From: Thermoflexales bacterium
Lineage (GTDB): Bacteria > Chloroflexota > Anaerolineae > J036 > Brachytrichaceae
Reading direction: 5' to 3'
DNA length: 51,589 nucleotides
Assembly (NCBI GenBank): GCA_025056965.1
Contig: JANWVF010000061.1
Span: 1-51,589 of the forward strand
Shown: positions 1 through 9,196 of the stretch, piece after piece
How the letters are laid out: each line of letters starts with the position of its first letter
How positions within the stretch are numbered: the first letter of the stretch is position 1
Notes under the pieces: model-generated
Seen by the model: the letters and a program-made list of their open reading frames with translations, nothing else
Databases searched by the model: none
Told to the model about the DNA's origin: nothing
Translations under genes and position numbers: made by a program

Positions 1-38
1 AACGGTCGGCCTGGGATAGATCGCTCTCTGATTATCAT
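1..38 (-). CDS. 5' end of an unidentified gene cut by the left edge
   Basis: A start codon at 38 reading leftwards opens a frame (M-I-I-R-E-R-S-I-P-G-R-P) that stays open to the window edge. A consensus Shine-Dalgarno AGGAGG (CCTCCT on the plus strand, 48-53) sits 9 nt before the ATG, which is the main reason for calling it. About 75-90 bases upstream is a copy of the TGTGGAC heptamer pair that also precedes the lipoprotein gene, so the two genes are probably co-regulated. Only 12 codons are visible, so nothing can be said about the product. Confidence 0.5.
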   Translation of the reverse strand, partial: MIIRERSIPGRP

Positions 39-111
39 TGTGATTAACCTCCTGATTGAAATGTGTGCTCTCTGCCTGAGTAACCGGCTCGGTCTCATGG
101 CACGTCTTCAG

Positions 112-117
112 ATTACG
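112..117 (-). promoter_or_regulatory. candidate -10 box for the left-edge gene
   Basis: CGTAAT on the minus strand lies exactly 8 bp after the second TGTGGAC heptamer. TAATCT, shifted by 2 nt (110-115), is an alternative. Transcription would start near 105 and give a leader of about 65 nt containing the AGGAGG site. The hexamer alone is weak; the spacing to the heptamers is the support. Confidence 0.35.
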
Positions 118-125
118 CCTGCGAC

Positions 126-143
126 GTCCACATAGCGTCCACA
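126..143 (-). promoter_or_regulatory. SARP-type operator: two TGTGGAC heptamers, 11-bp period (copy 1)
   Basis: The minus strand reads TGTGGAC-GCTA-TGTGGAC, a direct repeat of a heptamer with a 4-bp spacer. The same 18 bp occurs at 1106-1123. SARP regulators (ActII-ORF4, DnrI, AfsR type) bind direct heptamers repeated every 11 bp, with the last repeat 8 bp before the -10 box. That layout is seen here, and a SARP gene lies at 1192-4815. Assignment to that regulator is inference. Confidence 0.55.
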
Positions 144-164
144 CGCCTGCGGGGTGGATTCGCC

Positions 165-182
165 GCCCTAGGGCACTAGGGC
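165..182 (-). other. hairpin overlapping the lipoprotein stop codon
   Basis: GCCCTAG and CTAGGGC form a perfect 7-bp stem around a 4-base loop, with the lipoprotein stop codon inside the structure. No T-run follows on the minus strand, so it is not a standard intrinsic terminator. It may stabilise the 3' end of the message or act with Rho. Confidence 0.3.
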
Positions 183-1060
183 ACGTTGTAGGCCAACAAG
201 ACGATCTCCGTTGCGCCCATGTTGGTCGAGCCGCTCGACTTGATCAGGCCCACGCCTGGCGCATACCAGCGTGCGTCGTCGCCCTCGAACGTGAAACCTG
301 GCATGCCGGCCGGTCCGCCGGAGAGGCTGATTTGAACGGTGGTCTTGCAGTTCACCCGCAGCGCCTCGAACGTGCCGGCCGGGACGGCGACGGCCTCGAT
401 TCCGACGGCCCGGCACGACGTCTCCGCTACGTTGCGCGACTCCATGGTGACGTCGCCGACCGTTTGCCGGCCGGAATAGACAATCTTCTGCGTCCAGGTC
501 TGGCCGGGCTGTGGGTCGGCCGGCAGCGAGATGCCCTCGTTCGACTCGACGGTGAAATCGGCCTGCATGTCTGCAGCGGCCACAGTCGCCCCGCCGGATG
601 GCGTGAGCGCGATCAGGTCGCCGTTCCGGCAGGCCCAGCTGCTGGTGCGCGTCGTCCCAGCGTCAAAAGTATCCTGGTCGTCGAAGCCATCCGGCCGGAC
701 AGCGGTGATGCGGCGGGTGAACGTGCCGCTGCTGATGCCACTGAGCCGATATTGCCACGAAGCGCCCTCGGCCACGGGCAGGTAGCGGTTTCCGCAAGCA
801 TCGGCGGCGACGGCGGCAGCCGTCGGGGTCGCCGGCGGGGTGGCCGTCGGTTGAGGGCTGGGCGTGGGCGGCGCGGTCGGCGATGCCTCAATCGCTGTCG
901 TTGCTGCCGCGGTGGCGGTGGGCGCCACCGTCGGCTCGGCAGTCGTCGGTGTGGCGACCGGCGCACTTGCCGATCCGTCCGAGCTGGTGGGTGCACCGGA
1001 TGAACAAGCCGATAACGCCAGCGCGAGCGCTAGGCAGGCAAAGCAAAGCCGTTTGGTCAT
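176..1060 (-). CDS. putative lipoprotein of unknown function
   Basis: 294 residues. The N-terminus is a lipoprotein signal peptide (MTKRL, a hydrophobic stretch, lipobox LSAC with Cys19). Residues about 20-90 are a Ser/Thr/Pro/Ala-rich spacer typical of surface proteins in this phylum. The rest (about 90-294) is a soluble domain containing 'YLPVAEGASWQYRLSG' and a late 'ARWYAPGVGLIKSS'. This pattern resembles extracytoplasmic proteins whose domain begins with a YxPxxxGxxWxY motif and ends near WYAxGVGxVK; their function is unknown. The ATG at 1060 has AGGGAG about 10 nt upstream. A TACATA -10 box and the SARP-type heptamer pair lie before it. It follows the SARP gene on the same strand but has its own promoter, so it is a likely direct target of that regulator. 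Confidence 0.75.
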   Translation of the reverse strand: MTKRLCFACLALALALSACSSGAPTSSDGSASAPVATPTTAEPTVAPTATAAATTAIEASPTAPPTPSPQPTATPPATPTAAAVAADACGNRYLPVAEGASWQYRLSGISSGTFTRRITAVRPDGFDDQDTFDAGTTRTSSWACRNGDLIALTPSGGATVAAADMQADFTVESNEGISLPADPQPGQTWTQKIVYSGRQTVGDVTMESRNVAETSCRAVGIEAVAVPAGTFEALRVNCKTTVQISLSGGPAGMPGFTFEGDDARWYAPGVGLIKSSGSTNMGATEIVLLAYNVP

Positions 1061-1091
1061 CTGTCGTTTTCTCCCTGTGATTTATCATGAG

Positions 1092-1097
1092 TATGTA
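1092..1097 (-). promoter_or_regulatory. candidate -10 box of the lipoprotein gene
   Basis: TACATA on the minus strand begins exactly 8 bp after the downstream TGTGGAC heptamer. Initiation near 1085 would leave a leader of about 25 nt containing the AGGGAG ribosome site. No -35 hexamer is apparent, as expected for an activator-dependent SARP promoter. Confidence 0.45.
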
Positions 1098-1105
1098 GGC
1101 GAAGC

Positions 1106-1123
1106 GTCCACATAGCGTCCACA
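1106..1123 (-). promoter_or_regulatory. SARP-type operator: two TGTGGAC heptamers, 11-bp period (copy 2)
   Basis: Identical over 18 bp to 126-143 and in the same orientation. It lies in the 131-bp gap between the SARP gene and the lipoprotein gene, 8 bp before TACATA. Identity of the element plus identical spacing to a -10 candidate at two promoters argues for a functional operator rather than a chance repeat. Confidence 0.6.
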
Positions 1124-1191: not shown

Positions 1192-4100
1192 TCACGCCAG
1201 CGCCGGCGGATCGGGCCAGTCATTTTCTGCGCAGGCGCGCAGGATGGCGCGGTTGAAGGCGAAGGCCGCGCAGTAACGCTCGCGTTGGGCGGCGGGCAGC
1301 GCCGCCTCGACGCGCCGCAGGCAGGCGACGGCCTCATCGAGCGCGGCGCGCGCCTCATCTGGCCGGCCGAGCGCGCGCAGCACCTGGGCGCGCGCGAACC
1401 AGATTTGCTGAGGATTCTCCACTTGGGGTATGCGCTCCAGATCGGCAACTGCCTGCGCGCTGTGGGCCTCGGCTGCGGCTAGGTCGCCCAGGCGCAAGCA
1501 GGCGATGGCGAGGAAGGCGCGGTCAATGCTGGCGTCCAGGTGGCCTTGAGCGGCGCGCAGCGCCAGGCCTTGCTCCATTACCTGACGCGCTTCGTCCAAG
1601 CGGCCTTGCTGCAACAGCGCCGCGCCCAAGTTGGCCAAAGCCGCCGCCTGCTGGGCTGGCAAGTCGAGCGCCGTGGCCCGCTCATAAGATTCGCGCAGCC
1701 AGCTTTCGCCTGCCGTGCCCTCACCCAGCCAGACGTATGCCGCGCCGAGGTTGCTGGCGGCTACGCACAGCCCGCGCGCATCTTGGATGCTTTGGAACAG
1801 GGCGTAGGCCTCGCGCGCCAGGGCGATGCCGTGGGTGAAGTCGCCCATGCGCAGCGCAAGCGTGCTGGCGTTGACGCGCGCGGCAGCCATGCCCTGGCGC
1901 AGGTCGAGGGCAGCATAGCCGGCGTAGGCGGCTTGGTAAGCGGCCAACGCTTCGTCTGGCCGCCCGAGCCGGGCGCACATGCGCGCAATCAGCACCTGAG
2001 CAGCCGCCTCGGCATCCGGTGCGCCGCGTTGGGCGAATAAGCGCTGCGCTTCTTGGGCATAGGTCAGCGCCGCGCCGAAGTCGTTGCGGACGGAAGCCAA
2101 GGCGCCGCGCGCCAGCATGATCTGCGGCAGCAAAGGGGATCGGGCGCCGGCGGCCGCGACCGCCTGGTTGAGCGCGGCCTCGGCGGCGTCGTAGCGTTCG
2201 CGCGATCGCTCGATCTCGGCCCATGTCAGCCAGACCTGCGCCTGGGCCGTCGCATCGCCCCGGTTCTGGGCCAGCGCCAGCGCGCGCTGCAGAGCCGATT
2301 CGGCTTCGGCCCAGCGCCGGCTCTGGGCCAGCGCGCGCGCCAGCGCGATGAGCACCGGTTCGCTTTGATACAACGTGCACGCGGCGGCGCGCTGCAGGGC
2401 GTCCACAGCTTCGCTCCAGGCATTGCGCGCCAGCGCGTAGCGCCCGCGTCGGTAATGCACTTCGGCTTGCCATTCGGGATGCTGCGGCGCAGCGTCGGCC
2501 ATGGCCTGAAGGGCGGCTAGGGCAGCCGCCTGCTGCTCGCGCTGCCCGCTCTCGTGCAGGGCGTGTTCCTGCTCACACAGTAGGTCAAACTGCAACGGCG
2601 CGTCGGCGCACAGCGCCAGCCCGTGCCGAATGGCGCTCAGGGCTGCCTCGTAGGCATACACCTCGCGCGCGCGCCGCGCGGCCTGCAGCCACATAGCGGC
2701 TGCTTGGTCGTGCTGGCCGGCCGCCTCCAGATGATAGGCGATCGTGTGTGGGTCGGCGTTGCGCCGGCCCAGGAGCGCGGCTGCTTGTTGATGCAATCGT
2801 TGGCGGCGCGCTGGGGAAAGCGCGTCCAGCGCAGCCTGCTGGACTTCTGGATAAGTAATGATGTAACGATCGCCGATCGGCAGCAGCCAGTCGCGCTGCG
2901 CGAGTACCTCGCAGGCGCGCTCGACTTCTGCCGGGCTGCGCCCGCTGACTTGCTGCAATTGGTCGGCCGTATCGCCGCCGAGGACCGCGGCCGCTTCCAA
3001 CACCTGTCGGCTGATCGGATCCAGGGTCGCTAGGTTGATGTGAATGGCCGCCCTCAGCGATTCCGGGGCCGCAACATCGTCTGCTGCGCGCAGGGCCAGC
3101 GTGGCGCGCAGCATCTCCAATACTGCGCGCGGTGCGCCTGCGCTATGCGCCCAGATCGCATCGGCCAGCGTCGTGGGCAGCCCCCACCGTTGCACCAGTG
3201 CCCTCACCGCCGTTGCGCTCAGCCCTGGCAGCCGCCACATGCGCACCCCCAAGGTGTGTAGGCGCTGCGCCAGCGCCCTCAGCGCCTCGTTGCGGGCAGG
3301 AGAATCGTCTTCGCGGCTGGTGAGGATTAGCACGATAGGAGCATCGGCTAGGCCGCGGGCCAGCCAGCCGATCGCCTCGAGCGAGGCTGAATCGGCGGCG
3401 TCCAGATCGTTCAGCACGATGGCCGTCGGCCGCTTGCCGGCCAAGGCCAGCAGCGCGCGCGGCAATGCCTGCAAGAGGCGGCGCGACGCAATAGTCGGCG
3501 CAGCGTCGTCGTCGGGCTTGTGCGGATCGCGTGGGGGGAGATAAGAGAAGACGGCGCGCAGCTCCGGCAATAGGCGCACGGCTTCGCTCATCCAAAGGCC
3601 GGTCGGCGTCGAGTCCTCGCTCGCCTCGTCGGGCGTGCGATGCAGTTGTTGCTGCAGCGCGACCTCGAGCAATAGGCGCATCAGCCGGAAGGGCGCATCG
3701 TAAGGCGCTCCGCGCGCGCTCGCCGACCAGACGCACAGCTCGGGCCGACGCCGCGACGCCGATTCCAGGGCGTGCTGAACGAGCACATTCTTGCCGCTGC
3801 CGGCCGGACCTTCAATCCATATGAGGCGCGGACCGTCACATAAGCCCGCGATTATGGCTTCGGCGATTTCGCCTTCTGTGTTCGGTGCGCCCAGTGCAAG
3901 GTCGCTCAGACGCGGCTCACTCGTCGCCGTTCGTTGCCGCGCGACGATGTTGGGTGAGGCCGGCTTGATCTCCGTCGGCATGCGCTGCACACGCGTGAGG
4001 TCCGATGGAAAGGCCAAGGCGCGCGCTTCGTCGAGCCGATCATTCAGCACGGCCTGATACACGGCGCGCGTCGCCTCATCCGGCTCAATCGCCAGTTCGC

Positions 4101-4815
4101 GCTCCAGTAAGCTGGCGCACCAAGCGAACTGGCGGATCGCGTCGCTGCGCCGTCCGCTAACGGCGTAGAGCCAGATCGCCTGGCGGTGCAAATCCTCGCC
4201 GAGCGCGTCCAGCGCAAGGGCTTGCTCGACGGACGCGATCGCGCGCGGGTAATCTTCCAGGGCAGTGTATCCGCTCACCATGCGGCGCAGCACATCCAGC
4301 CGCAGGCGCTCGAAGCGTTCGCGCTGACGATGCATCCAGTGCTCGAACTCCGGCGCGTTGTCCAGTTCTAGGCCTTGCAGCAACGGTTCGGCGCCGATCT
4401 GCGCCGCGCGTTCTGCGGCGCGCAGACCGGCCGGGTCGGGTAGCTCGCGCGCTCGGCTCGAAAGCTCCAGGAAGTCGTGGGCGTCAACTCGGCAGATCTC
4501 CGCATCGAACCGCAGCAGGCTGCTCGTCGAGCCGGACGTGTTGGGGATTAGCCGATCGGCCGGCGCGCCGATCGAGCGGCGCAGCTCGGAGAGCGACCGA
4601 CGTAAGCGCTGACGGGCGACTTCCTGGTCGGCATCGGGCCACAACAGATAGCACAGTTCGTCGCGCGTCATCGGGCGCGCGTGCAGCGCCAGCACCGACA
4701 GGACGGCCAGTGGCTGACGCCGACGAAACCGGGCTTCGCACGTGCCGATGTAGAGTCGCGGCGCACCGAACATCCTGAATTCGACGATTCGAGATGTTGA
4801 TCTGTGAGTATTCAC
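1192..4815 (-). CDS. SARP-type transcriptional activator with BTAD, AAA-like ATPase and TPR domains
   Basis: 1207 residues. Order seen: OmpR-like winged helix (about 10-100), bacterial transcriptional activation domain with helical repeats (about 110-265), linker, STAND/AAA-type nucleotide-binding module with Walker A GPAGSGKN (Lys342) and Walker B-like AIVLNDLD, then a long Ala-rich TPR solenoid (about 650-1200). Large SARPs of this type (AfsR-like) couple nucleotide- or partner-dependent oligomerisation to activation at direct-repeat operators. Asn follows the Walker A lysine where Thr or Ser is usual. The GTG start at 4815 has a very strong AAGGAGGGGG 6 nt upstream. It lies only 27 bases after the PA14 gene and is probably co-transcribed with it. 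Likely targets are the heptamer-pair promoters to its left. The family call is firm; ligand and regulon are unknown. Confidence 0.88.
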   Translation of the reverse strand: MNTHRSTSRIVEFRMFGAPRLYIGTCEARFRRRQPLAVLSVLALHARPMTRDELCYLLWPDADQEVARQRLRRSLSELRRSIGAPADRLIPNTSGSTSSLLRFDAEICRVDAHDFLELSSRARELPDPAGLRAAERAAQIGAEPLLQGLELDNAPEFEHWMHRQRERFERLRLDVLRRMVSGYTALEDYPRAIASVEQALALDALGEDLHRQAIWLYAVSGRRSDAIRQFAWCASLLERELAIEPDEATRAVYQAVLNDRLDEARALAFPSDLTRVQRMPTEIKPASPNIVARQRTATSEPRLSDLALGAPNTEGEIAEAIIAGLCDGPRLIWIEGPAGSGKNVLVQHALESASRRRPELCVWSASARGAPYDAPFRLMRLLLEVALQQQLHRTPDEASEDSTPTGLWMSEAVRLLPELRAVFSYLPPRDPHKPDDDAAPTIASRRLLQALPRALLALAGKRPTAIVLNDLDAADSASLEAIGWLARGLADAPIVLILTSREDDSPARNEALRALAQRLHTLGVRMWRLPGLSATAVRALVQRWGLPTTLADAIWAHSAGAPRAVLEMLRATLALRAADDVAAPESLRAAIHINLATLDPISRQVLEAAAVLGGDTADQLQQVSGRSPAEVERACEVLAQRDWLLPIGDRYIITYPEVQQAALDALSPARRQRLHQQAAALLGRRNADPHTIAYHLEAAGQHDQAAAMWLQAARRAREVYAYEAALSAIRHGLALCADAPLQFDLLCEQEHALHESGQREQQAAALAALQAMADAAPQHPEWQAEVHYRRGRYALARNAWSEAVDALQRAAACTLYQSEPVLIALARALAQSRRWAEAESALQRALALAQNRGDATAQAQVWLTWAEIERSRERYDAAEAALNQAVAAAGARSPLLPQIMLARGALASVRNDFGAALTYAQEAQRLFAQRGAPDAEAAAQVLIARMCARLGRPDEALAAYQAAYAGYAALDLRQGMAAARVNASTLALRMGDFTHGIALAREAYALFQSIQDARGLCVAASNLGAAYVWLGEGTAGESWLRESYERATALDLPAQQAAALANLGAALLQQGRLDEARQVMEQGLALRAAQGHLDASIDRAFLAIACLRLGDLAAAEAHSAQAVADLERIPQVENPQQIWFARAQVLRALGRPDEARAALDEAVACLRRVEAALPAAQRERYCAAFAFNRAILRACAENDWPDPPALA

Positions 4816-4842: not shown

Positions 4843-6831
4843 CTACGGAGTGACAATAATGATGGCCGGCGTCTCCGTCGGCGTGGGCGATGGGGTGGTG
4901 GGTGACGTTGGCGTGCCGGTCGGCAGCGGGGAAGACGGTGTATCCGTCGGTGTTGGCGAAGGCAGCGGGGTGTTTGTGGGCGTCGTCGTGGGCGTAGCGG
5001 TCGGCGGCAGTGGCGTGTTCGTAGGCGTCGGCGTGGATGTGGGAGTCGGCAACGGCGGGGTGTTCGTAGGCGTGGGCGTCAGCGTCGGCGTCGCCGTGGG
5101 TGGGGGTGGCACAAGCGCCCAGACCAGCGCGAGGTTGCCCGGGCCGGTGTAGTTCACGTACTGCACCTGCAGGAAGTGCGGGCCGGCGCTTAGCGCACGG
5201 GTGCCAACCAGCACCTTCACGCCGGCCGTGAAGTCATCTATGCCGGGGACGATTGCCCCGTCAATTAACAGCCGCGCGCCGTCGTCCACCGTCGCCGTGA
5301 ACACGTATGTGCCGGCGACCGGGAAGTTAACCGAGCGCCGCCAGTCTGCCGAGAAGTTGAAGGGGTTGACCTGCGGCGGCGGCCAATTCGGCATCGCCGC
5401 GGTGTTCAGGAATCCGGGCGGGTTCGGCGGCGCCGGTGGATCATCGCGCTTAGCGACAACCGGGCCGGTCAAGTTGGGCGAGTTGTAATATCGGCCTTCC
5501 CATCCGGCGTAGTTGACCCGCCAGTTCAACGCGACGCGCGCCGAGCCGCTCGACTTGTAGTACTCGACCCGCACCTCATGCGCCCCGGCCGTCAGGCTCA
5601 CGTCGGCCGTCGCCGTGCGCAAGCCGGCGCTGAACCATTGATTGATGATCAGTATGTCATCCACGAACACGCGCGCGCCGCCGTCCACGCTCAACGTGAA
5701 GCGGTAGTTATCCGTGGTCGGGAAGTTGACGTTGCTGGTGAAGATAGCCGACCAGTTGTTGCGCGGGACGCCCGAAGCAGGTGCGCCTGTGCCCCAGTTC
5801 ACATTCAGCGGCGGGCCGGGCAGGTTCTGGTCGAACAGCACAGGCGGGATGAGATCGGGATTGTTGAAATACTGGCCGTACCACGCGCCGGCAGGGTTGG
5901 GATTGGGCGTCGCGGTCGCCGCGATGACCGTCGGAGCCGGCGGCGGCGTGCACGTCGCAGGCAGGGTTGGCACGGCCAGTGGACCGTTGAAGGTATTGTT
6001 GGCCTTGTTGCTCTCGGCGACCAGGTTACTCGGATCAATGACGACGAGGTTCGAGCCGGTCGTGAAACCGGGGAACCACAGGGAGGTCGTTTGACCGGGC
6101 GCAAGCCCGCTCGGCTGTTGCTGCTGATTGTTGACCAGCACGGCGAACGGCCCGACAGGCGCGTTGCCGACGTTCTGTACGGCAACGCGGATGCCGAGCT
6201 GAGTCGAGACGTAAGCGCAACTCGAGCCGGTCTCCAGCTCGATGGCTACGCCGGCGATGGCCAGGTCGGGCAACGGGCCGACCGAGGTGGCCGTCGGCGT
6301 CGGCGGTACGGGTGACGTCGGCGTAGGGATGATCTCGCCGCTGACGGCGATCGGCGTGAACTGCGTGAATCCGCTCTTCGCGCCTCGCGCGACGAGATAG
6401 TATTGACCGGTTGCGCCGGGCGCGACCAAGTTGTCGCGCACGAAAGTGCCGTCGGCACCCACAATCGCGTCACCCAGACGCCGTAGCTCGCTGGCGGGAG
6501 ACGTCGGCGAAGATGCTAGAAAGATCTCGACGGCCTCATTGGCTTGAAAGCCACTTCCGCGCACGCCGAAGGGGCCACCGGGCACGAGTGGACCGTTGGC
6601 TTCGATGCGCGCTCTGATTCCGGGCGACGTCGGCACAACGCCCTGTTCGCCGGCGCTGCGCGACAAGAGCCAGAACGCAGCCGTGCAGCTCAGGATCAGC
6701 ACTACGACGGTGAGGATGCCGGCCCACACATAGCGCGATGGCGACGCCGTCTCGACGCCGGCTAGGCCGTCCGAGGGAGTCCCCGGAGGAGATGTCGGCG
6801 ATGAAGGAAGTGGGTCGCGTTCTGGTCTCAT
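4843..6831 (-). CDS. membrane-anchored CARDB/PA14-domain surface protein with Thr-Pro tail
   Basis: 662 residues from the ATG at 6831, chosen because GGAG lies 7 nt upstream (a TTG one codon earlier is less likely). One transmembrane segment (about 33-60) anchors it, leaving a short cytoplasmic N-terminus and a large outer part. Next come a carboxypeptidase-regulatory-like region (about 75-165), a CARDB domain (about 190-290, 'LPDLAIAGVAIE') and two consecutive PA14-like domains (about 320-445 and 448-580), recognisable by W/YxGxYFNNPDL and DDGARLLIDG. The last 80 residues are a Thr-Pro-rich tail ending in IIIVTP. PA14 and CARDB modules bind carbohydrate or mediate adhesion. It heads the unit with the SARP gene, so it might supply an external input to that regulator; this is inference. 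Promoter TATAAT at 6852-6857. Confidence 0.82.
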   Translation of the reverse strand: MRPERDPLPSSPTSPPGTPSDGLAGVETASPSRYVWAGILTVVVLILSCTAAFWLLSRSAGEQGVVPTSPGIRARIEANGPLVPGGPFGVRGSGFQANEAVEIFLASSPTSPASELRRLGDAIVGADGTFVRDNLVAPGATGQYYLVARGAKSGFTQFTPIAVSGEIIPTPTSPVPPTPTATSVGPLPDLAIAGVAIELETGSSCAYVSTQLGIRVAVQNVGNAPVGPFAVLVNNQQQQPSGLAPGQTTSLWFPGFTTGSNLVVIDPSNLVAESNKANNTFNGPLAVPTLPATCTPPPAPTVIAATATPNPNPAGAWYGQYFNNPDLIPPVLFDQNLPGPPLNVNWGTGAPASGVPRNNWSAIFTSNVNFPTTDNYRFTLSVDGGARVFVDDILIINQWFSAGLRTATADVSLTAGAHEVRVEYYKSSGSARVALNWRVNYAGWEGRYYNSPNLTGPVVAKRDDPPAPPNPPGFLNTAAMPNWPPPQVNPFNFSADWRRSVNFPVAGTYVFTATVDDGARLLIDGAIVPGIDDFTAGVKVLVGTRALSAGPHFLQVQYVNYTGPGNLALVWALVPPPPTATPTLTPTPTNTPPLPTPTSTPTPTNTPLPPTATPTTTPTNTPLPSPTPTDTPSSPLPTGTPTSPTTPSPTPTETPAIIIVTP
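4850..5110 (-). repeat. low-complexity Thr-Pro-coding repeat
   Basis: Imperfect tandem units around GGCGTNGGCGTGGG (plus strand) encode the TPTPTNTP-like tail of the PA14 protein. It is a protein-coding low-complexity tract prone to length change, not a mobile element. Confidence 0.75.
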
Positions 6832-6851
6832 CAACTCGCTCCAGATTTAAG

Positions 6852-7735: not shown

Positions 7736-9196
7736 ATGCCTATACGCACGCGGCTCACGATCTGGTACACCGCCGTCCTCGCGTTGGTTCTCCTCATCTT
7801 CGGCACGGGGGTATACATCTACGTCAGCTGGCAGATGATTCAGCAGGTGGACTCGCGGCTGAGCCAGGCTGCCAACACTGCGCTGCCGCTCGCCCTGAGC
7901 CAGCGGCCGGAAGTCGAGGAACGTGCCGGACATAGGGTGTTGACGCTTCCCGGCCTGGATGCCCTGCGCGCCTCCGAGACCTACGTGCAACTCATCGGCC
8001 CGCGCGGCCAGGTGATCGGCATCTCGCCCAACGTCGCCGACCCGTTCCTGACGAATCACCTCGACCCGAAGGCGTTCAAGGAAGCGATCGGTATGCCTGC
8101 CGAACAGCGCGCGAATCTGTTCACCGAGGCGCAACATCGCGGGCTGCCGCCGATCCGCGTCTTCACGCAGGCGCTCACGGCGCGCAACGGTGAAGTGGTG
8201 GGCTATCTACAGGTCGCTACGTCGCTGGAGAGCGTCAAAGCGGCGCAGAACAGCCTGTTGATCGCACTGTTGTCGCTCGGCGGGCTGGGCATCTTATTCT
8301 CGGCCGTCATCGGCGCGTTGCTGGCGCGGCGCGCGCTGCGGCCGGTGGACGAATTGACGAAGACGGCCATGGCGATCTACCGCGCCGAAAACCTCGACCA
8401 GCGCGTCGCCGTCCCCAAGACGAACGACGAGGTGAGCCGGCTGTCGCAGGCATTCAACGAAATGCTCGACCGGCTGTCGAAGCTCTTTCACGCGCAGCAG
8501 CGCCTGATCGCCGACGTGTCGCACGAGATGCGCACGCCGCTCACCGTCATCCGCGGCAACGTGGATCTGCTGCGCGCGATGGGCTGTGCTGATGAAGAAT
8601 CGCTCGATGCCCTCACCCGCGAGAGCGACCGCATGACGCGCTTGGTCGGCGATCTGCTGCTGCTTTCCCAGGCCGACGCCGGCGTGCTGCCGATGCATTT
8701 CCATACCGTCAGGCTGAGCCAGGTGATCTCGGACGTGGAGCGCAGCGGACAGGTGCTCAGCGCCGGCCGCGTCAATGTGTCGGCGCACGTCGAGCCTGAC
8801 CTAGTCATCCAAGCCGACGCCGACCGCTTGAAGCAAGTCCTGCTCAATTTGGTGGATAACGCGATCAAGCATACCCCTGAGGGCGGGCAGGTGCGCATCG
8901 AAGCGGTGCGCAGCTACAACAACTATGTGCGCATCTCCGTCAGCGACACCGGCATCGGCATCCCGGAGAAGGACTTACCGCACGTGTTCGAGCGCTTCTA
9001 CCGCGTGGATAAATCGCGCTCGCGGGCCAACGGCGGCTCTGGACTTGGCCTCGCCATCGCTCACTCGATCGTCCAGGCGCACAACGGCCGCATCGTCGTG
9101 AACAGCAAACTCGGCGTCGGCACGACGTTCGACGTCTACCTGCCCAGGCAGCACCAGCCTGCCTCGAGCGGGGAGAGCGAGGCTATCTCTGCCTGA
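7736..9196 (+). CDS. transmembrane sensor histidine kinase
   Basis: 486 residues. TM1 is about 9-30, an extracytoplasmic sensor region about 31-172, TM2 about 173-197, followed by HAMP (about 198-250). The HisKA H-box DVSHEMRTPLTV has phospho-acceptor His263. The HATPase domain shows the N-box (LLNLVDNAIKHTPEGG), G1 (VSDTGIGIP), F-box (FERFYRVD) and G2 (GGSGLGLAIA). It belongs to the common OmpR-coupled kinase class. No response regulator is adjacent; the nearest is the orphan at 22445-23194, whose OmpR-class DNA-binding domain would suit it. Its 3' end overlaps the convergent aminotransferase by 14 bases. No Shine-Dalgarno precedes the ATG at 7736. Confidence 0.93.
   Translation: MPIRTRLTIWYTAVLALVLLIFGTGVYIYVSWQMIQQVDSRLSQAANTALPLALSQRPEVEERAGHRVLTLPGLDALRASETYVQLIGPRGQVIGISPNVADPFLTNHLDPKAFKEAIGMPAEQRANLFTEAQHRGLPPIRVFTQALTARNGEVVGYLQVATSLESVKAAQNSLLIALLSLGGLGILFSAVIGALLARRALRPVDELTKTAMAIYRAENLDQRVAVPKTNDEVSRLSQAFNEMLDRLSKLFHAQQRLIADVSHEMRTPLTVIRGNVDLLRAMGCADEESLDALTRESDRMTRLVGDLLLLSQADAGVLPMHFHTVRLSQVISDVERSGQVLSAGRVNVSAHVEPDLVIQADADRLKQVLLNLVDNAIKHTPEGGQVRIEAVRSYNNYVRISVSDTGIGIPEKDLPHVFERFYRVDKSRSRANGGSGLGLAIAHSIVQAHNGRIVVNSKLGVGTTFDVYLPRQHQPASSGESEAISA

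Follow-up and report, generated by a model that had tools for sequence, protein, structure and literature searches.

Paired direct repeats behind a large SARP gene of a Thermoflexales bacterium as probable activator sites of exported-protein genes in Chloroflexota

The locus considered here raises the question of what recognises two identical 18-mers placed beside the gene of a large SARP, and which genes are controlled through them. In the window, i.e. the whole analysed stretch of 51,589 nucleotides, the sequence TGTGGACGCTATGTGGAC occurs at 126-143 and at 1106-1123, both times on the minus strand and in an intergenic region, exactly as the earlier note had described the pair. The explanation that we regard as very probable from the sequence evidence is that an AfsR-type SARP binds these operators as a pair and activates genes of exported proteins. 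The features on which the argument is built are the following:

1..38, minus strand, 5′ part of the left-edge gene, truncated at the contig end, with its ATG at 38-36 and AGGAGG at 53-48
110..115, minus strand, -10 hexamer TAATCT of operator 1, at +10 from its second TGTGGAC
122..143, minus strand, operator 1, tandem 11-mers TGTGGACGCTA (143-133) and TGTGGACGTCG (132-122)
176..1060, minus strand, predicted target, a DUF3108-like lipoprotein with a signal sequence and an LSAC lipobox
1090..1095, minus strand, -10 hexamer CATACT of operator 2, at +10 from its second TGTGGAC
1102..1123, minus strand, operator 2, tandem 11-mers TGTGGACGCTA (1123-1113) and TGTGGACGCTT (1112-1102)
1192..4815, minus strand, large SARP of 1207 aa with winged helix and BTAD (about residues 1-270), AAA_16 ATPase and TPR
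4579..4617, minus strand, recognition helix ARQRLRRSLSELR, residues 67-79, by alignment to AfsR

As the SARP, the lipoprotein and the cut gene are all encoded on the minus strand, each site separates a gene from its downstream neighbour. Read along this strand, the lipoprotein gene follows the SARP gene, which puts operator 2 just downstream of the SARP gene, 68 bp beyond its stop and 5′ of the lipoprotein gene, while operator 1 lies 5′ of the left-edge gene. The same arrangement, with one site between the SARP and the lipoprotein and another after the lipoprotein, is present in the related genomes G008 and G015. Upstream of the window SARP gene, no exact site was found.

In regard to the genome as a whole (3,126,790 bases), the exact pattern TGTGGAC-N4-TGTGGAC is present only in the two window copies, so the random or intragenic scatter that the earlier note proposed to check for is not seen. 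For 14 fixed bases on both strands, and with base composition ignored, the expectation is about 0.0004 exact matches for the window and about 0.02 for the genome. A single site with one mismatch, TGTAGACGCTTTGTGGAC, was found elsewhere, at position 2409 of contig C50, 5′ of an exported-protein gene. At two mismatches, the genome-wide search gave 11 matches vs. 10 in the control, and because this count equals the control level, only exact or near-exact sites are informative.

Across sites, the conserved unit proved to be an 11-mer, TGTRGACGYTN, two of which stand in tandem, with a TAnnnT -10 box beginning 6 bp after the second one. Counted from the second TGTRGAC, TAnnnT starts at exactly +10 in 32 of the 42 sites, and every other offset between 0 and 35 collects 0-2 sites. 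For some of the 42, TA was part of the search pattern; the 18 obtained without this constraint have TAnnnT at +10 in 10 cases and TA at +10 in 13. The distance of 8 bp from TGTGGAC to the -10 box, given in the earlier note, is in fact 10 bp, and 8 bp results only from reading the repeat as TGTGGACGC; its observation is in this way partly confirmed, with the 18-mers and the SARP correct and the spacing wrong. In Streptomyces coelicolor, the afs box bound by the activator AfsR at the afsS promoter consists of two 11-bp direct repeats extending from -40 to -19 and overlapping the -35 element (PMC10936776). If the -10 box is set at -12 to -7, the repeats described here cover -40 to -19 as well, and they end 6 bp before the -10 box, like the -19 to -12 of the afs box (PMC10936776). 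Direct repeats of 11 bp at a fixed short distance to the -10 box are what is expected of SARP sites.

The 1207-residue SARP claimed to stand beside the sites is real. Its Pfam matches comprise BTAD (PF03704, 1.3e-16), AAA_16 and several TPR families, and no receiver domain, as expected of OmpR/PhoB-type proteins, is among the Pfam families matched. The predicted model of the N-terminal 280 residues (pLDDT 90) resembles most closely the structures of AfsR (8k60, Z 20.1) and EmbR (2ff4, Z 19.5), with the next rows at about 11.5. The protein has an OmpR-type winged helix followed by BTAD, as do SARPs in general, and behind this part the nucleotide-binding (NOD) and TPR domains of large AfsR-type SARPs. 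AfsR reads bases with T88 and R92 (PMC10936776); in the alignment these positions fall on R73 and E77 (Q at 77 in some relatives), a replacement that may be the reason for the different repeat. R73 alone was rejected as a diagnostic of the window motif, since it is also present in some SARPs that have no tie to it. The Walker A segment (3787-3810) reads GPAGSGKN vs. the consensus GxxGxGKS/T, that of G008 reads GPTGAPAS, with the lysine lost, and G022 has GKS; given the GKN P-loop and the lysine loss in G008, ATP use may have been lost in the clade of the window SARP. A gene for a membrane-anchored PA14/CARDB protein (4843-6834) precedes the SARP gene in the same orientation, with 28 bp between its end and the SARP start, and the two may share a transcript; this protein has weak homologues only, in two or three related loci.

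The order to which the window belongs is represented by one family of 28 genomes. The exact motif was found in 9 of the 10 genomes with a SARP orthologue vs. none of the 18 without it (one-sided Fisher 1.4e-6, kinship ignored). The exception, G010, has the SARP and no site, and its contig breaks off where the SARP gene has its 3′ end, which is the expected spot; its beta-helix target gene is cut by a contig end on another contig. With the refined 30-mer and up to 3 mismatches, 20 sites were detected in the order, all in SARP-positive genomes, and the reversed control gave 0. The genus of the window is itself patchy, with SARP and motif in G003, G005 and G008 and neither of them in G001, G002, G004, G006 and G007. 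Relatives that keep the SARP had been named in the earlier note as the place to look, and in them the motif follows the orthologue, at the same place behind the SARP and 10 bp before the -10 box. Contig breaks were observed at or near the SARP/target locus in G000, G003, G010, G015, G017 and G024 (window 1; L105, L113, L119, L118, L102), perhaps due to strain variation or repeats.

The association extends beyond the order. The refined pattern was found in 14 of 396 genomes of the class sample (control 3 matches) and in 14 of 400 genomes of the phylum sample (control 0), the two samples overlapping in the window's own family. Outside the order, 12 genomes (G047, G132, G183, G198, G581, G640, G682, G546, G692, G518, G688 and G532) have a site that follows a large SARP gene in the same orientation, at a distance of up to about 600 bp. 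The distant genomes include Chloroflexia and other Anaerolineae, with the motif directly behind the large SARP gene, and their SARPs are about 26 to 59% identical to the window protein. In G504 and G022 sites are present away from the SARP, and in G106 (L199:234-263) one site precedes a SARP-like gene and is directed away from it, the usual place being behind the gene. Only the SARP and the lipoprotein are common to the window and the distant loci; the histidine kinase encoded nearby is not.

Genes behind the sites mostly encode exported proteins, namely lipoproteins, DUF7452, laminin-G-like, bacterial Ig and beta-helix proteins, and DUF3592 membrane proteins. Orthologues of the window lipoprotein lie behind the same operator in G008, G015, G692 and G504. 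The earlier note had predicted a local regulon of the lipoprotein and the left-edge gene; both are kept as predicted targets, whereas the restriction to the locus does not agree with the C50 site and with several unlinked sites in relatives. Such unlinked targets are homologous to SARP-linked ones, those of G000 C50 and G015 C54 to a gene of G020, and that of G024 C210 to genes of G005/G008; the C50 gene, which belongs to the window's genome, shares 45% identity with the SARP-linked gene of G020. As the window is contig C127 from base 1, only the first 12 codons of the left-edge gene are present. The beta-helix protein seen at the corresponding place in G008/G005 has no match in the window's genome, and the assignment of the left-edge gene to this protein was therefore abandoned. 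DUF7452 and related proteins recur behind SARP sites (L108, L111, L114, L201, L265), in one case with a SARP of another repeat type. In several Chloroflexia (L202:7375, L204:5891, L207:5419), the gene immediately behind the site encodes a small DUF3592-like membrane protein, and in G504 this gene is followed by the lipoprotein orthologue.

In regard to the mechanism, the repeat, its register and position, its co-occurrence with the SARP, the fold and the exported targets are read from the sequence, and from these we infer DNA binding, the dimer, activation and the signal. The N-terminal winged-helix/BTAD part would bind side by side, one protomer per 11-bp repeat TGTGGACGNTN, and the SARP pair would occupy the place of the -35 element. 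Once bound, the SARP would recruit RNA polymerase to promoters in which the -10 box begins 6 bp past the second repeat. Besides the lipoprotein gene (176-1060) and the left-edge gene, the predicted targets include at least one gene on contig C50, all taken as exported-protein genes, and the AAA/TPR part presumably senses a signal.

A sequence-blind scan was also performed on the 700 bp behind 75 other large SARP frames, with no preset sequence. A match required two 8-mers that agree in 7 or more of their 8 bases and repeat with a period of 11 bp, with TAnnnT placed as at the afs box. The scan returned 19 matches, compared to 0.25 in block shuffles, 2 on the upstream side and 3 on the reverse strand; the control downstream of 298 other frames gave 7. 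No such repeat was detected within 700 bp for 56 of the 75. The matches peak at the afs-box register and the adjacent one, because a longer repeat lets the 8-mer slide, and one match (L261) looks like chance. The repeats sort by recognition helix: LRR goes with ..GGACG, [ST]HLLTHL with TGTAGCCA, [ST]TALW with TTTTGNCAC or similar, and [SN]QALW with GAGATA. The genes behind these SARPs are often, not always, exported. A search of 396 genomes for TGTAGCCA-N3-TGTAGCCA-N9-TA detected 22 sites in 15 genomes (control 0), and 5 of these sites were already in the discovery set. Among the 17 outside it, 7 are 37-1546 bp behind a SARP frame, another stands where a short SARP frame ends, and the remaining nine do not adjoin a SARP; the readable helices at these sites were [TS]HLLTHL in 4/4. 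The sites not adjoining a SARP in the stretch read are those in L317, L318, L320-L324, L326 and L328, and SARP-remote sites are possible unlinked regulon members.

A partial Mantel analysis of helix against operator, beyond relatedness, gave a partial r of 0.34 (p 0.001) with window-type SARPs included and 0.03 (p 0.40) without them. As significance is reached only with window-type SARPs, the helix-repeat code is suggestive and not established, and a helix specificity independent of relatedness is only partly supported. For many of the large TPR-SARPs in Chloroflexota, the operator seems to lie immediately behind the SARP's own gene, and its repeat to go with the recognition helix. It is also somewhat likely that the large TPR-SARPs of the phylum form a family, many members of which have a self-identifying operator behind the gene, a readable helix-repeat code and mostly exported or surface targets.

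OmpR/PhoB-type regulators are of the same winged-helix class as SARPs and bind 11-bp direct repeats over the -35 region. An alternative is thus that such a response regulator binds the repeats and that the SARP is a bystander, for which the shared class and period and a histidine kinase gene nearby (7736-9196) could be put forward. However, across distant genomes the site follows the SARP gene while the kinase and other neighbours are not shared, and the repeats behind other large SARPs are different ones, sorting with the helix of the SARP concerned, which makes this alternative quite improbable; the neighbouring kinase as the regulator was discarded with the absence of its gene from the distant loci.

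It could also be that the SARP binds and represses, or that the circuit is purely local, with no activation of an exported-protein regulon. The sign of regulation is unreadable from sequence, but the site replaces the -35 element as in the activator AfsR (PMC10936776) and sites precede target genes, unlinked ones included. Moreover, the scan of the 75 other SARPs placed 2 repeats upstream and 19 downstream, and upstream of the window SARP no exact one is found; we consider this possibility unlikely, though less so than the bystander one. Finally, two identical 18-mers 1 kb apart could recall a mobile, interspersed or chance repeat copied into both intergenic regions. Yet the flanks differ between the copies, and unrelated genomes contain the same short motif, again at a fixed distance from the -10 box, with reversed-pattern controls near zero; on these controls and the fixed register such an origin was rejected, and we assign next to no probability to it. 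Activation by the SARP remains the preferred reading, and the interpretation first offered for the locus, having survived its own refutation tests, is supported and right in substance.

A literature search, which covered few subscription papers, found no study of SARPs or SARP operators in Chloroflexota/Chloroflexi. The new elements are the sequence of the operator, the phylum, the type of target and, for many large SARPs, the rule that the operator lies behind the gene. The pairing of a tag with the regulator beside it recurs across Chloroflexota, and the site of an activator and part of its gene set can thus be predicted from sequence. If this is true, the operator, the promoter and the likely targets of many uncharacterised large regulators could be read from the DNA behind their gene, a natural data set on how SARPs recognise DNA, on their recognition code, would be at hand, and SARPs would be tied to the cell surface, not to antibiotic synthesis.

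Among known systems, OmpR/PhoB proteins share with the window system the winged helix and 11-bp direct repeats, and differ in that the window protein has BTAD and Pfam matches without a receiver domain. EmbR of Mycobacterium tuberculosis shares the winged helix and BTAD fold, but it has a C-terminal FHA domain and is not a TPR-SARP. The SARP-LAL regulators PimR, SanG and PolR are likewise large multidomain SARPs with heptamers separated by 4-bp spacers; their heptamer is CGGCAAG, and PimR uses three repeats that do not overlap the -35 element (PMC5930380). An operator unlike the TCGAGC heptamers had been anticipated for the window, and its sequence is indeed new, whereas such divergence was already known from PimR (PMC5930380). 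The closest likeness is to AfsR, also a large SARP with nucleotide-binding and TPR domains and the same N-terminal fold, whose 11-bp direct repeats overlap the -35 element with an equal gap to the -10 box (PMC10936776). The differences lie in the repeat TGTRGACGYTN, read with R73 and E77/Q where AfsR has T88 and R92, in a degenerate Walker A (GKN; lost in G008), and in a Chloroflexota host in which exported proteins and not antibiotic control would be targeted. Judged by its sequence features, the system is one that resembles AfsR at the afs box and has what defines the SARP family.
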